Source: Candidatus Saccharimonadota bacterium (GTDB taxonomy: Bacteria; Patescibacteriota; Saccharimonadia; Saccharimonadales; Saccharimonadaceae). Taken from it: a DNA stretch of 64,000 nt. The position numbers and the translations under genes were made by a program. Each line of letters starts with the position of its first letter. The first letter of the stretch is position 1. The stretch spans positions 184,296 through 248,295 of the forward strand of contig JAFWSN010000001.1 of the NCBI GenBank assembly GCA_017519305.1. Reading direction: 5' to 3'. Shown here one piece after another: positions 26,290-31,198 of this stretch. Below the pieces are notes generated by a model. The model saw only the letters and a program-made list of their open reading frames with translations. It was not told the origin of the DNA and did no database searches.

Positions 26290-27063
26290 ATGAGGATTAC
26301 AGTTTTAGGTGCGGGTGCATTTGGCTCAGCCCTTGGGCATATTTTGGAAGCCAAAAAACACGAAGTAACCTACTTTTCATTAGCGAGCAAAATTACCCTA
26401 GAAGAATCTCTAAAAGACGCCGAGATGATTATTTTGGCCATCCCGTCCAAAGCCATAGACGAAATGTTGCCGAAGCTGCCCAAAAATATTCCGTTAGTCG
26501 TCGCGACCAAAGGAATTCTTGATACTTCCATCTTTAAAGATTTCGAAGATGTTATGGTGCTTTCTGGTCCTGGCTTTGCGGCCGACATCGAAAAGCACGT
26601 CAAAACCACCCTTACCGCTACCGACCCTAGAATCCGTGATCTTTTTGAAACTCCTTGGCTCAAGTTTGAACTCACCGCCGACGAAAAAGGAGTTTTACTT
26701 TGTGGCGCGCTCAAAAACATTTACGCTATCTACGCCGGTTGGCACAACCTTAAGCCGGGCACGGACAAATATAACAACTTTATTGAAACAGTTATTCAGG
26801 AATTCAAACTTATTCTGTTTTACAACGGCGCCAATCCTAAAACTGCCGAACTACTATGCGGCCGCGGTGATTTAATTTTGACCTGTGATTTTCCATCTAG
26901 AAATTACGAATTCGGGCAAGGGCTTATTGCTGGCAAAACCAAACCAGCAAAAACCGTCGAGGGGGTTACCGCATTAAAACGCGTCAAAGCCGGCGAACTC
27001 AAAGTCCCGCCTGCCGCCGGTATTTTACGAGAGCTAATCAGGGAGAGTGACGCATGGGCTTAA
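26290..27063 (+). CDS. gpsA: NAD(P)-dependent glycerol-3-phosphate dehydrogenase-like, short
   Basis: Reduces dihydroxyacetone phosphate to sn-glycerol-3-phosphate for phospholipids. Rossmann motif LGAGAFGSALG at the N terminus, VVATKGI, LSGPGFA, GALKNIYAIYAGW (catalytic Lys region) and SRNYEFGQGL match GpsA. At 257 residues it is about 70 shorter than usual; much of the middle and C-terminal domain is trimmed. TATAAT 26278-26283 is six bases before ATG 26290 (TGTTATAAT), so leaderless. Ten-base overlap with the helicase gene. Confidence 0.85.
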   Translation: MRITVLGAGAFGSALGHILEAKKHEVTYFSLASKITLEESLKDAEMIILAIPSKAIDEMLPKLPKNIPLVVATKGILDTSIFKDFEDVMVLSGPGFAADIEKHVKTTLTATDPRIRDLFETPWLKFELTADEKGVLLCGALKNIYAIYAGWHNLKPGTDKYNNFIETVIQEFKLILFYNGANPKTAELLCGRGDLILTCDFPSRNYEFGQGLIAGKTKPAKTVEGVTALKRVKAGELKVPPAAGILRELIRESDAWA

Positions 27064-30000
27064 ATCAAAATCAAAAAGCGGCCGTAGAATACCTAGACGG
27101 TCCACTCTTAGTTTTGGCTGGTCCTGGTACTGGTAAAACTCAGCTGCTTTCAAGTAAAGTCGCCTATATCCTCGAGAATACCGACACGAATCCAGAAAAT
27201 ATTTTGTGTCTCACCTTTACCGAATCCGGCGCCACTAACATGCGTGAACGTCTCGGCAGTATCATGGGCGGCAAAGACAGTAGCAAAGTCAATATCAGTA
27301 CCTACCACGCCTTCGGTTCGGAAATCCTAACTCAGTACAAAAATTATTCCGATTCTTACTCCCGCAAACTCGACTCCGCCATTGAAGATGTCACCAAGTT
27401 CAAAATCATTAAAGATATTCAAGCGCATCTACCAGGCACCGACATCATGCGTGGTGACAATATTAAAGATATTATCGATACCATTTCTTCCGCCAAGTCT
27501 GCCCGCCTTACCGCTGACGACCTCAAAATAGTCGCCAAGCAAAACCTCGAAGATTCTAAAGCCATCAGCGATTTTGCTTCGCTTTATTTAAAACAAATCG
27601 TACCGCGTGATTATCGCAATTCCCTAAACAATGCCTATCTGCCAATCCTAAACGAACTCAAAAAATTCGAGAATATTCCACCAATCCTAAAAGGTGTTGA
27701 ACGCTCAATTAAACTACTGATTAACGACCTCGAAAAAGCCGTCGACGAAGCTTCTGTCACCGAGAAAATCACGCCACTTTCAGGCTGGAAAGATGCCTAT
27801 TTTGAAAAAGATGAGCATGGCAATTATCGCTTAAAAGACCGCATCGCCAACAAAAAACTGGCTAGCCTTGCCAACATCATGGAACAATACGAAGCGCGCT
27901 TACGCCGCGACGGTCTTTATGATTTTGACGACATGATTGAGGAGGCTGTGCGCGTATTAAAAGAAGATGAGGGCTTCCGCCTTACACTGTCCGAACGTTA
28001 TCAATTTATTTTGCTCGACGAGTTCCAAGATACTAACCCGTCGCAATTCGAAATTATTAAACAAATTACCGATTACGAAAAACCGCTCATTATGGCCGTA
28101 GGTGACGACGACCAGGCAATTTATGAATTTCAGGGCGCTTCAGCCACCACTTTGATCGAATTCCAAGATCACTACCACGCCGAAGTAATCCCTCTAGTCG
28201 ACAACTATCGTAGCTCGCAGGAAGTCCTAGACTTTTCCAAACACGTCATCGACCAAATTGACGACAATACCCGCTTCGGCGAAAAATCCTTGCATGCCGT
28301 CAACAATAATCCTGCCGTGTCGCAGATTTCGCGCCACGAATTTTTATCTTCCGACGCCGAATATGCCTTTGTGGCCGAAGAAATCGCCAAACTAATTAGA
28401 AGCGGTATTAAACAGAGCGACATCGCCATTATCGCGCCAAAACACAAATACATCTTGCCAGTTCTGCCATATTTAAAGAGCCAAAACCTCATTAATATTT
28501 CCTACGAAAAGCGCGACAACTTACTCGAAAACCCTGAGATTCACGCCATCATCACTATTTCTCGCTTCATTTACGATGTTGCAAACGGCAAAACGCCACA
28601 AACCAGTATCCTAGAAATTCTTTCGTACCCATTCTGGGGCGTTTCGATGCTGACCGTGCTCAAAACCTTTGACAACGCCCGCATCACCCCGAGCGAAGCC
28701 TTCGTTAAAATGTCTGAATCGGAAGACGAAAAACTGAGATTCATTGCCGATTTACTCGCCGAACTCGTTGCTAAAGCCTTTGATACACCAATTAATATCT
28801 TTATCAACTATTTAATTGGCGCCGCCAAAATCCGCGACTTTAATTCGCCAATTATTCGATATTATTCCGCAAAAGGCGACTATGACTCGTATCAGCTTTA
28901 TGAAAACTTGGCATTGCTACTCAGCAAAGTAGACCGTTACCTCACCGAAGACCGCGTAGCCAAGCTTGCCGATCTTGTTGCCATGATCAACGATTATGAA
29001 GCTGCCGATTTGCCAATTTCCGAAGCTAGCCCATATCGCGACCTCGAGGATGCCGTGCAGATTCTTTCCGCTCACAAAGCCAAAGGCCTCGAGTTTAAAT
29101 ATGTTTTCTTGATTGCCGCCGATCATTCCGCCTGGGGCAAGGGAAAGGGAAATAACAATCTTTTGTCATTGCCGAAAAACCTCTTACAAATCCGTCATAC
29201 CGGCACCACGGACGGCGAACGTTTGAGGTTACTGTACGTTGCTATTACTCGTGCCAAGGAACATTTGATTATTACTAACTCGCGCAGAGATTTCAACGAC
29301 AAGTCGCCAGAAAGACTCGAATATCTTGGTGAGTTTGTCCAAAATACCGATAGTGGTGAACGCGTAATTAGTCCATATATTCCAAACGGTACCGTCAATT
29401 GTCATTATCAAGAAGTTGATCCGTTTACTTTGGAGAGCAATTTACGTAATTGGCTCACACCATACCTTGCACCATCGCCAGATATGCGCGCCATTTATAA
29501 AACCAAGGTCGAGAATTATCGTTTATCCGCTTCGTCACTCACTAGTTTCATCGACATCGTCTACGCTGGTCCAGTTGAATTCTTTAAACAGCAAATTCTG
29601 CGCGCGCCAAGGGAACCGGCCACCGAGCAAATCATCTTCGGCGACTTAATTCACAAAACTTTCGAAAAAGTTACAAACGACAAAATTTCTGATGAAAAAG
29701 CTATCGAATTCTTCCTATCCGAACTAGACAAAACTGCCGTCGAGCCAGAAGTTGCTGCCGCCTTGCGCGAACGCGGTCCAAAAGATTTAGCCGTTTCACT
29801 TGCCGCTTTCCGTAATGTTCTAAATAGTGGTAAGGCCGAGGTTAACCTCTCGCCAGAAAAGCTCGCCATGGAAGGCGTTCCACTCACTGGTAAAATCGAC
29901 CACATCACCGTAGATGATATAAATAAAACTATCGAGATTTATGACTTCAAGACCGGCAATTATCACAAAGAAAAGTGGGACAGCAAACCGACCCTATTCA

Positions 30001-30314
30001 AATATATGCTTCAGCTTGGGTTCTATAGGCTCCTGCTCAATCTTTCGCCAACCTATTCTAAATATCGTATTGAAAAAGCTCATATCCTTTTTGTGACACC
30101 AGACAAAGACGGCGAAGTTCATGATAAAATCTACGAGTTCAATGCCGCCGACGAGGAATTATTAATTAAGCTCATCAAATCAGTTCACCAACATATTACC
30201 AGCCTCGACTTCCTGGATGACCCACAACTATTCATCGAGCCAGACGACAGTCGCGGCATCAAAGACATCAAGAAATTTATCGAACTTATGCTTGCAAAAA
30301 CCGCCCAAAAGTAG
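27054..30314 (+). CDS. UvrD/Rep-type helicase fused to a RecB-like nuclease
   Basis: A 1086-residue SF1A helicase: Walker A AGPGTGKTQLL, Walker B LLDEFQDTNPSQFEII, motif III GDDDQAIYEFQGA, motif IV VDNYRSS, motif V SAHKAKGLEF and motif VI LLYVAITRAKEH. The C-terminal 250 residues add a PD-(D/E)XK nuclease (GKIDHITV ... IEIYDFKTGNYH ... YMLQLGFYRLLL). Such fusions resemble AddA/PcrA-nuclease proteins that process double-strand breaks or foreign DNA. No partner subunit is nearby. Starts inside the gpsA end. Confidence 0.93.
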   Translation: MGLNQNQKAAVEYLDGPLLVLAGPGTGKTQLLSSKVAYILENTDTNPENILCLTFTESGATNMRERLGSIMGGKDSSKVNISTYHAFGSEILTQYKNYSDSYSRKLDSAIEDVTKFKIIKDIQAHLPGTDIMRGDNIKDIIDTISSAKSARLTADDLKIVAKQNLEDSKAISDFASLYLKQIVPRDYRNSLNNAYLPILNELKKFENIPPILKGVERSIKLLINDLEKAVDEASVTEKITPLSGWKDAYFEKDEHGNYRLKDRIANKKLASLANIMEQYEARLRRDGLYDFDDMIEEAVRVLKEDEGFRLTLSERYQFILLDEFQDTNPSQFEIIKQITDYEKPLIMAVGDDDQAIYEFQGASATTLIEFQDHYHAEVIPLVDNYRSSQEVLDFSKHVIDQIDDNTRFGEKSLHAVNNNPAVSQISRHEFLSSDAEYAFVAEEIAKLIRSGIKQSDIAIIAPKHKYILPVLPYLKSQNLINISYEKRDNLLENPEIHAIITISRFIYDVANGKTPQTSILEILSYPFWGVSMLTVLKTFDNARITPSEAFVKMSESEDEKLRFIADLLAELVAKAFDTPINIFINYLIGAAKIRDFNSPIIRYYSAKGDYDSYQLYENLALLLSKVDRYLTEDRVAKLADLVAMINDYEAADLPISEASPYRDLEDAVQILSAHKAKGLEFKYVFLIAADHSAWGKGKGNNNLLSLPKNLLQIRHTGTTDGERLRLLYVAITRAKEHLIITNSRRDFNDKSPERLEYLGEFVQNTDSGERVISPYIPNGTVNCHYQEVDPFTLESNLRNWLTPYLAPSPDMRAIYKTKVENYRLSASSLTSFIDIVYAGPVEFFKQQILRAPREPATEQIIFGDLIHKTFEKVTNDKISDEKAIEFFLSELDKTAVEPEVAAALRERGPKDLAVSLAAFRNVLNSGKAEVNLSPEKLAMEGVPLTGKIDHITVDDINKTIEIYDFKTGNYHKEKWDSKPTLFKYMLQLGFYRLLLNLSPTYSKYRIEKAHILFVTPDKDGEVHDKIYEFNAADEELLIKLIKSVHQHITSLDFLDDPQLFIEPDDSRGIKDIKKFIELMLAKTAQK

Positions 30315-30371
30315 TATCATACGGGGAATCTCCGTCTTGGAGAAATCGTACATTGAAAGGTGGTGTTATGC

Positions 30372-30539
30372 GTGGGCGAGTTAATTATTAAGGATGCCGC
30401 TACTGGCCAATCCTATAAATTCCAACCGACCGCTCAAGGTTATGCTGAAGCCGATAGAAAGGTGCAAGAAATTAACCAGAATGGTCACAGCGTCATCAGC
30501 CCAGACCTCAAACGTCTGAGCGATTACTTCGGTCGTTAA
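30372..30539 (+). CDS. Small protein (55 aa), GTG start
   Basis: GTG 30372 opens a frame reading MGELIIKDAATGQSYKF... and ending ...DLKRLSDYFGR. AAAGGTGGTG lies upstream, and an intrinsic terminator follows the TAA by about 20 bases. An ATG at 30368 in another frame gives only seven codons. The protein is soluble with a likely beta hairpin then helix. No homology recognised. Confidence 0.6.
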   Translation: MGELIIKDAATGQSYKFQPTAQGYAEADRKVQEINQNGHSVISPDLKRLSDYFGR

Positions 30540-30560
30540 TACACAAGTCCCATCTTCGTA

Positions 30561-30585
30561 AAGGCCCTCAAGCGAGGGCCTTTTT
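30561..30585 (+). terminator. Terminator after the 55-residue gene
   Basis: GGCCCTC/GAGGGCC hairpin with five T residues. Confidence 0.85.
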
Positions 30586-30589
30586 ATAC

Positions 30590-30618
30590 TTGACTTAGCC
30601 AGGAGAATACTATATACT
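30590..30618 (+). promoter_or_regulatory. Strong promoter for the 30.6 kb ncRNA
   Basis: TTGACT (30590-30595), exactly 17 bases, TATACT (30613-30618). One of few promoters in the window with a clear -35 element. Confidence 0.75.
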
Positions 30619-30624
30619 CCTATT

Positions 30625-30933
30625 CACAAGTCTGCATCAACTTGTCTCGAAGTCTGGCATAGCAATATGCAGCGAAGGCCCCTACCGGCCTGATGCACCC
30701 GGTAGGATCCGAGTTTAGCGCGCAAAGCTCGCACATTACACTATAGAAAGGAAGGTATAGACCAATGGGTTATTTCAAGGCTCCGATGGTCAGGAGCTAG
30801 TAAGTTGAGACTGGAGACCAAAACCTATGAAACCACAAACAATACTTAACCACTGGTTTTTCCGGTGATGGAACCGCCGGAAGCCCTTTCTATCAAACTC
30901 TCTTGGGGGAGACGTTCTGCGCCTCCCCTTTTT
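30625..30933 (+). ncRNA. Candidate structured non-coding RNA, about 310 nt
   Basis: Between a consensus promoter and a strong terminator (GGGGAG/CTCCCC with five T residues, 30906-30933) lies about 300 bases with no ORF of useful size. Stems visible: CTACCGG/CCGGTAG with GATGC in its loop, GCATCA (near 30634) complementary to TGATGC in that loop (possible pseudoknot or switch), GAGTTTAGC/GCTC, GGTC/GACC and TTCCGG/CCGGAA. A possible 11-codon frame (30765-30800, MGYFKAPMVRS) follows GGAAGG. It does not show the signature bases of tmRNA, RNase P, SRP or 6S RNA. Confidence 0.55.
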
Positions 30934-30988
30934 AATACCGCTTTTTTCTTTACTTTTCGAAATAGATATGATAAAATAGTCAACAATT

Positions 30989-31198
30989 ATGGCAAAAAAG
31001 AATAATACTAAGCGCAAACTCGTTGGCCTCGTTTCTGAGGAGTCTGGTGTCCGTGCTTACTACACCAAGAAGAATACGATGAATACTCCTGATAAGCTTT
31101 CTCTTAAGAAGTACGATCCAGTTCTTCGCAAACACGTTGTTTTCACCGAGACCAAGAAAAACCTCGGCCGCAACGAAGTCAAAGAAAAGAAACGCTAA
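30989..31198 (+). CDS. rpmG: 50S ribosomal protein L33, cysteine-free form
   Basis: A 69-residue protein matching L33: [38 protein letters not shown]. The four zinc-binding cysteines of the C+ form are absent, so this is the C- type that does not bind zinc. N- and C-terminal extensions are rich in Lys/Asn. A -10-like TAAAAT lies about 11 bases before ATG 30989, without a Shine-Dalgarno site. Terminator hairpin AAGCCCTCAGGGGCTT follows the stop. Confidence 0.9.

Follow-up and report, generated by a model that had tools for sequence, protein, structure and literature searches.

A putative stand-alone structured RNA between a UvrD-family helicase gene and rpmG in a small Saccharibacteria clade

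Locus and transcription unit

The window analysed, a stretch of 64,000 nt, belongs to a genome of 786 kb (G000), in which the candidate RNA unit is chromosomal (30590-30933; Table 1). The locus comprises, in this order, the gene of a UvrD-family helicase, a 55-codon ORF with its own terminator, the RNA unit and rpmG, encoding ribosomal protein L33. The terminator of the RNA is separated from rpmG by 55 nt, and one tRNA-Trp lies about 300 nt downstream of the RNA. The initial annotation had read the unit as an independent one with a consensus promoter and a strong terminator, and this description held: a sigma-70-type promoter with 10 of 12 consensus positions precedes about 309 non-coding nt ending in an intrinsic terminator (GGGGGAGACGTTCTGCGCCTCCCCTTTTT). 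Both promoter and terminator were conserved among the carriers of the RNA (the window, G163 and G153), the promoter being identical in G163 (TTGACT/TATACT) and perfect in G153 (TTGACA-17-TATAAT).

Table 1. Features of the candidate RNA unit and its neighbours, in positions of the window.
Feature	Position	Strand	Basis or remark
UvrD-family helicase	27054-30314		Upstream context
Small ORF, 55 aa	30372..30539	+	Upstream context, outside the RNA; GTG start, strong SD
Terminator of the small ORF	30560-30583		Upstream of the RNA unit
Sigma-70-type promoter, TTGACT-17-TATACT	30590..30618	+	10/12 consensus matches; kept in G163, perfect in G153
Structured RNA, ~309 nt	30625..30933	+	No long ORF; 5' end placed from the promoter
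P1 hairpin, ACAAGT-CTGCATCA-ACTTGT	30626..30645	+	MFE; compensatory changes in G153, L057
P1 loop segment, TGCATCA	30633-30639	+	Perfect complement of the P3 loop segment
P2 hairpin, GCATA-GCAA-TATGC	30657..30670	+	MFE and alignment; missing in G153
P3 hairpin, CCTACCGG-CCTGATGCAC-CCGGTAGG	30681..30706	+	MFE, shuffle test, covariation
P3 loop segment, TGATGCA	30691-30697	+	Complementary to the P1 loop
P4 hairpin, CGAGTTT/AAGCTCG	30710..30731	+	Directly before CACATT; compatible changes in G163, other stem in G153
Closing helix P5, 5' strand, ATAGAAAGG	30743..30751	+	MFE; pairs with CCTTTCTAT
Most conserved segment, GAAAGGAAGGTATAGACCAATG	30746..30767	+	SD-like purines, GGT-ATAG-ACC mini-hairpin, AUG
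11-codon ORF, MGYFKAPMVRS	30765..30800	+	ATG at 30765, TAG ends at 30800; unconserved
3' hairpin, TTTCCGG...CCGGAAG	30859..30883	+	MFE
Closing helix P5, 3' strand, CCTTTCTAT	30885..30893	+	MFE
Intrinsic terminator of the RNA unit	30905..30933	+	Sequence and fold
rpmG (ribosomal protein L33) with its own promoter	30949..31198	+	Downstream context; gene at 30989-31198

Across the genus, a variable set of small ORFs occurs downstream of the helicase (30315-30560 in the window and the same interval in L003-L031). Common to them are GAAAGGGGGTGA, a strong ribosome-binding site, and a promoter that lies within the end of the helicase gene, and some are cysteine-rich and zinc-finger-like. Similar T-rich tails flank the RNA unit in the window (30580-30600 and 30929-30945) and likewise in L053, and in G153 the tail CTCTTTTTTATT stands on both sides. 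These tails may be no more than terminator tracts, or may be the trace of a duplication or insertion.

Distribution in the genus and a probable phage relative

Among 174 genomes of the genus, the RNA was carried by the window genome, by G163 (a 90% copy) and by G153 (a strongly diverged copy of 591 nt with its own terminator), with no convincing match in the other 171. All three copies lie at one locus, between the small ORF and rpmG; at the other listed loci with kept synteny, the helicase-rpmG interval has small ORFs and a terminator only. The G153 copy could be aligned to the window RNA in the 5' domain only, up to GAAAGAGAGGTATAGACCAATG. As the helicase fragment is still 92% (G163) and 88% (G153) identical to that of the window, the RNA evolves far faster than its neighbour. 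In the helicase tree the three carriers form a single clade (support 100/100), which points to one gain.

In the de novo covariance-model search of related genomes proposed in the initial annotation, models run over the genus, 393 genomes from the order and 393 from the class gave no further convincing copies. Outside the genus, a probable phage relative, L057, was matched. The marginal model hits (L106, L114-L116, L120 and L121) were rejected, as their count equals the chance expectation for the genomes searched, and G165, which has an exact 14-nt motif in another context without the RNA, was also judged a chance match.

L057 lies on a rumen phage contig with genes for an RNA ligase, a polynucleotide kinase, a thymidylate synthase and many tRNAs, and scored 33.8 bits with the window/G163 covariance model. 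The candidate heads a tRNA array and ends at the first tRNA of that array. It possesses an upstream promoter (TTGACA-TATACT), a perfect 8-bp P1 with a loop (CTGCAGCA) near-identical to the P1 loop of the window, and a 22-nt motif exactly common to it and the G153 copy. Because L057 was located through the common motif, only its P1 counts as independent evidence. Chance produced P1-like hairpins with a 7/8 loop match only about twice in the 1.2 Mb of other sequence examined, and L057 is therefore probably a true relative.

An exact motif scan of all GTDB contigs returned the carriers G163 and G153 and six other contigs, most of the latter chance-like. The motif-only Clostridia candidates L058/L102 and L059/L101, which lack the P1 hairpin, were rejected as homologues. 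DNA similarity search of phages and plasmids gave no match to the RNA. Motif scans of IMG/VR added no further member, the matches being mostly gene starts or coding sequence and judged chance; in L055, the motif opens an ORF resembling an HNH-type endonuclease. Combined P1 and motif patterns returned none in IMG/VR.

Inside the L057 tRNA array, a sub-threshold Y RNA-like (YrlA) match was noted on the minus strand (L057:1884-1993). The rumen phage contig also encodes a DUF2828/DUF7788 protein (L117:15805-16911, minus strand) that appears Ro-like and matches vWA weakly (phrog_850, RNA-binding protein). A recurrent 20-codon ORF, MVFVICLVVVCLLAWYSDPY and close variants, was found behind GTTAACTAGCAAAGGTATAGACCAATGG in IMG/VR sequences L077, L079-L081, L083, L089 and L090.

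Fold, covariation and the conserved segment

The abundance of complementary segments noted in the initial annotation was borne out by folding: the window RNA has an MFE of -95.1 kcal/mol, and its shuffles gave -83.5 +/- 4.0, none of the 100 reaching so low a value (z = -2.9). The annotated pairing of GCATCA with TGATGC is real and spans 7 nt rather than 6 (TGCATCA/TGATGCA), both segments lying in hairpin loops (P1 and P3); a perfectly complementary pair of predicted loops that long occurred in 0 of 300 dinucleotide shuffles. The pseudoknot and the two exclusive folds envisaged for it are both viable: G153 keeps the hairpins, while RNAalifold, applied to the close copies of the window and G163 only, chose to join the loop segments in a long-range helix, breaking no pair. 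In G153, 6 of the 7 loop-loop pairs are possible (GAACCUC/GAGGAUC, read by eye), a level that is not rare by chance. A predicted kissing contact between the two loops, with both hairpins formed, fits both data sets.

Four sequences were aligned under guidance of the model. Of the cells in this alignment, 97.8% were paired, and nine pairs had changed on both sides, compared to 2.6 in shuffles (0 of 500 as high); slid controls reached 2 pairs at most. The alignment is fitted to the structure and thus biased towards it. MAFFT could not align the three full RNAs beyond the 5' domain, so the evidence for covariation comes from the model-guided alignment, to which the Saccharibacteria give two clearly separate sequences only (the window and G163 are 90% alike, and G153 can hardly be aligned beyond that domain). 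Compensation is plain by eye in P1 (ACAAGT/ACTTGT in the window; ACTTGT/ACAAGT and AAGAGT/ACTCTT) and in P3 (CTACCGG/CCGGTAG in the window; CTTTGCC/GGCGAAG). P4 shows two compatible changes in G163, and a different stem stands directly before CACATT in G153; P5 has a shifted register in G163 and 7 bp in G153; in P3, G163 has a single mismatched pair (C-A). Covariation, on which the initial annotation had made its candidate depend, is thus present as compensatory or compatible changes in P1, P3 and P4.

The best-conserved part of the RNA is ribosome-binding-like, GAAAG(GA/AG)AGGTATAGACCAATG. The 11-codon ORF annotated at this place is present with GGAAGG upstream of it, but its reading frame is not conserved in G153, where 14 unrelated codons follow (MQSSRNSAKLHLFE); the phage contig has two (MG), and G163 adds no information because its DNA is identical to that of the window. 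The mini-ORF is probably not the function of the RNA, and the SD-to-AUG stretch may be kept for ribosome binding or for the GGT-ATAG-ACC hairpin.

This conserved segment coincides exactly with the SD-to-AUG stretch, as would be expected if the unit had arisen as a tandem copy of the adjoining small-ORF unit and then decayed to a relic or mini-mRNA that kept promoter, SD and AUG and lost its coding sequence. Small ORFs of relatives in the interval begin TATAGAAAGGGGGTGA-ATG, similar to TATAGAAAGGAAGGT...ATG in the window, and the T-rich terminator tails of the units are alike. Such an origin is nevertheless unlikely: compensatory changes preserve the hairpins upstream of the SD, G153 has retained or even bettered the promoter, for which a relic has no use, and the unit showed no similarity to the coding sequence of the small ORF.

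Slightly less credible is a cis-acting attenuator of rpmG, in which a leader ORF and alternative pairings would control passage through the terminator into the L33 gene. The unit shares with leader-peptide attenuators its layout of a promoter, an SD-like short ORF, alternative pairings and a terminator before a ribosomal protein gene, and differs from them in that the ORF is unconserved (the leader peptide is unrelated in G153), the rpmG promoter follows the terminator, in a region kept in many relatives without the RNA, and 171 of the 174 genus genomes have no convincing copy of the element. Attenuation is unlikely because rpmG has its own promoter and nearly all relatives do without the element. 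An mRNA for a short functional peptide (a dual-function sRNA), suggested by SD-like purines and a properly spaced AUG in the best-conserved stretch, is very improbable, as the window, G153 and phage peptides show neither similarity nor conservation of length.

Known RNA families and proposed reading

The window RNA matched no Rfam family at gathering score or meaningfully below it (best sub-threshold match, E = 1.8). Models for tmRNA, RNase P, SRP and 6S RNA, whose marks had been found missing from the sequence at the outset, gave no match, at E up to 10 for SRP and 6S RNA; the tmRNA of the genome lies elsewhere (G000:C2:13652-14006), as does its RNase P RNA. The short internal reading frame recalls tmRNA, but the window RNA has no tRNA-like ends. 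ROOL and GOLLD models gave no match to the window, G153 or phage copies at E up to 10. Literature search found no stand-alone ncRNA beyond the universal ones described for Saccharibacteria. Elsewhere in the window, a ribosomal protein L10 leader (RF00557; 53038-53187) scored barely above gathering score.

ROOL and GOLLD are phage- or prophage-encoded RNAs of unknown function that occur near tRNA islands (often so for ROOL), ROOL being of rumen origin and having kissing loops (PMC12286853). The window RNA resembles them in its own promoter, compact fold, predicted loop-loop pairing and probable relative in a phage tRNA array, and L057 recalls ROOL by its place at the head of such an array in a rumen phage contig. 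As to location, the window copy is chromosomal, whereas the probable relative L057 lies in the phage array. Sizes differ: a ROOL structure determined by cryo-EM has 659 nt and many GOLLD members exceed 800 nt, compared to about 309 nt for the RNA in the window and 591 nt in G153. In life-style, though not in family, these two RNAs come closest to it (PMC12286853).

The absence of an Rfam match, the conserved promoter and terminator, the single locus in three genomes and the compensatory changes uphold the original proposal of an unknown structured RNA. Overall, the unit is likely a real, independent structured RNA that fits no described class; its distribution is narrow and patchy, and a link to phages is likely. 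In the preferred reading, given a probability of about 0.6, a gene that stands alone and evolves very fast encodes a trans-acting structured RNA outside the described families, and from its sequence we infer how it would work. The RNA would be transcribed from its own promoter, and a kissing contact of the P1 loop with the P3 loop, or else an exclusive helix formed by these segments, would organise a 5' domain presenting the conserved SD-like/AUG segment. This segment (candidate site GAAAGGAAGG) may touch the 30S ribosome or start a dispensable mini-ORF, and the RNA would act as a molecule and not via a peptide. The ancestor of the small Saccharibacteria clade probably acquired it once, from a phage-like source. 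A bolder version is speculative and rather improbable: that it represents a new phage-type RNA class common to rumen Clostridia phages and gut or rumen Saccharibacteria, and that the 5' domain of these RNAs, with its kissing loops, exposes a ribosome-binding-like segment through which they act on translation or the 30S subunit.

If the preferred reading is true, a fast-evolving RNA gained by one clade and with apparent rumen phage kin would suggest that phages and these reduced epibionts exchange RNAs, and the orphan phage RNAs such as ROOL and GOLLD would gain a small and tractable example.
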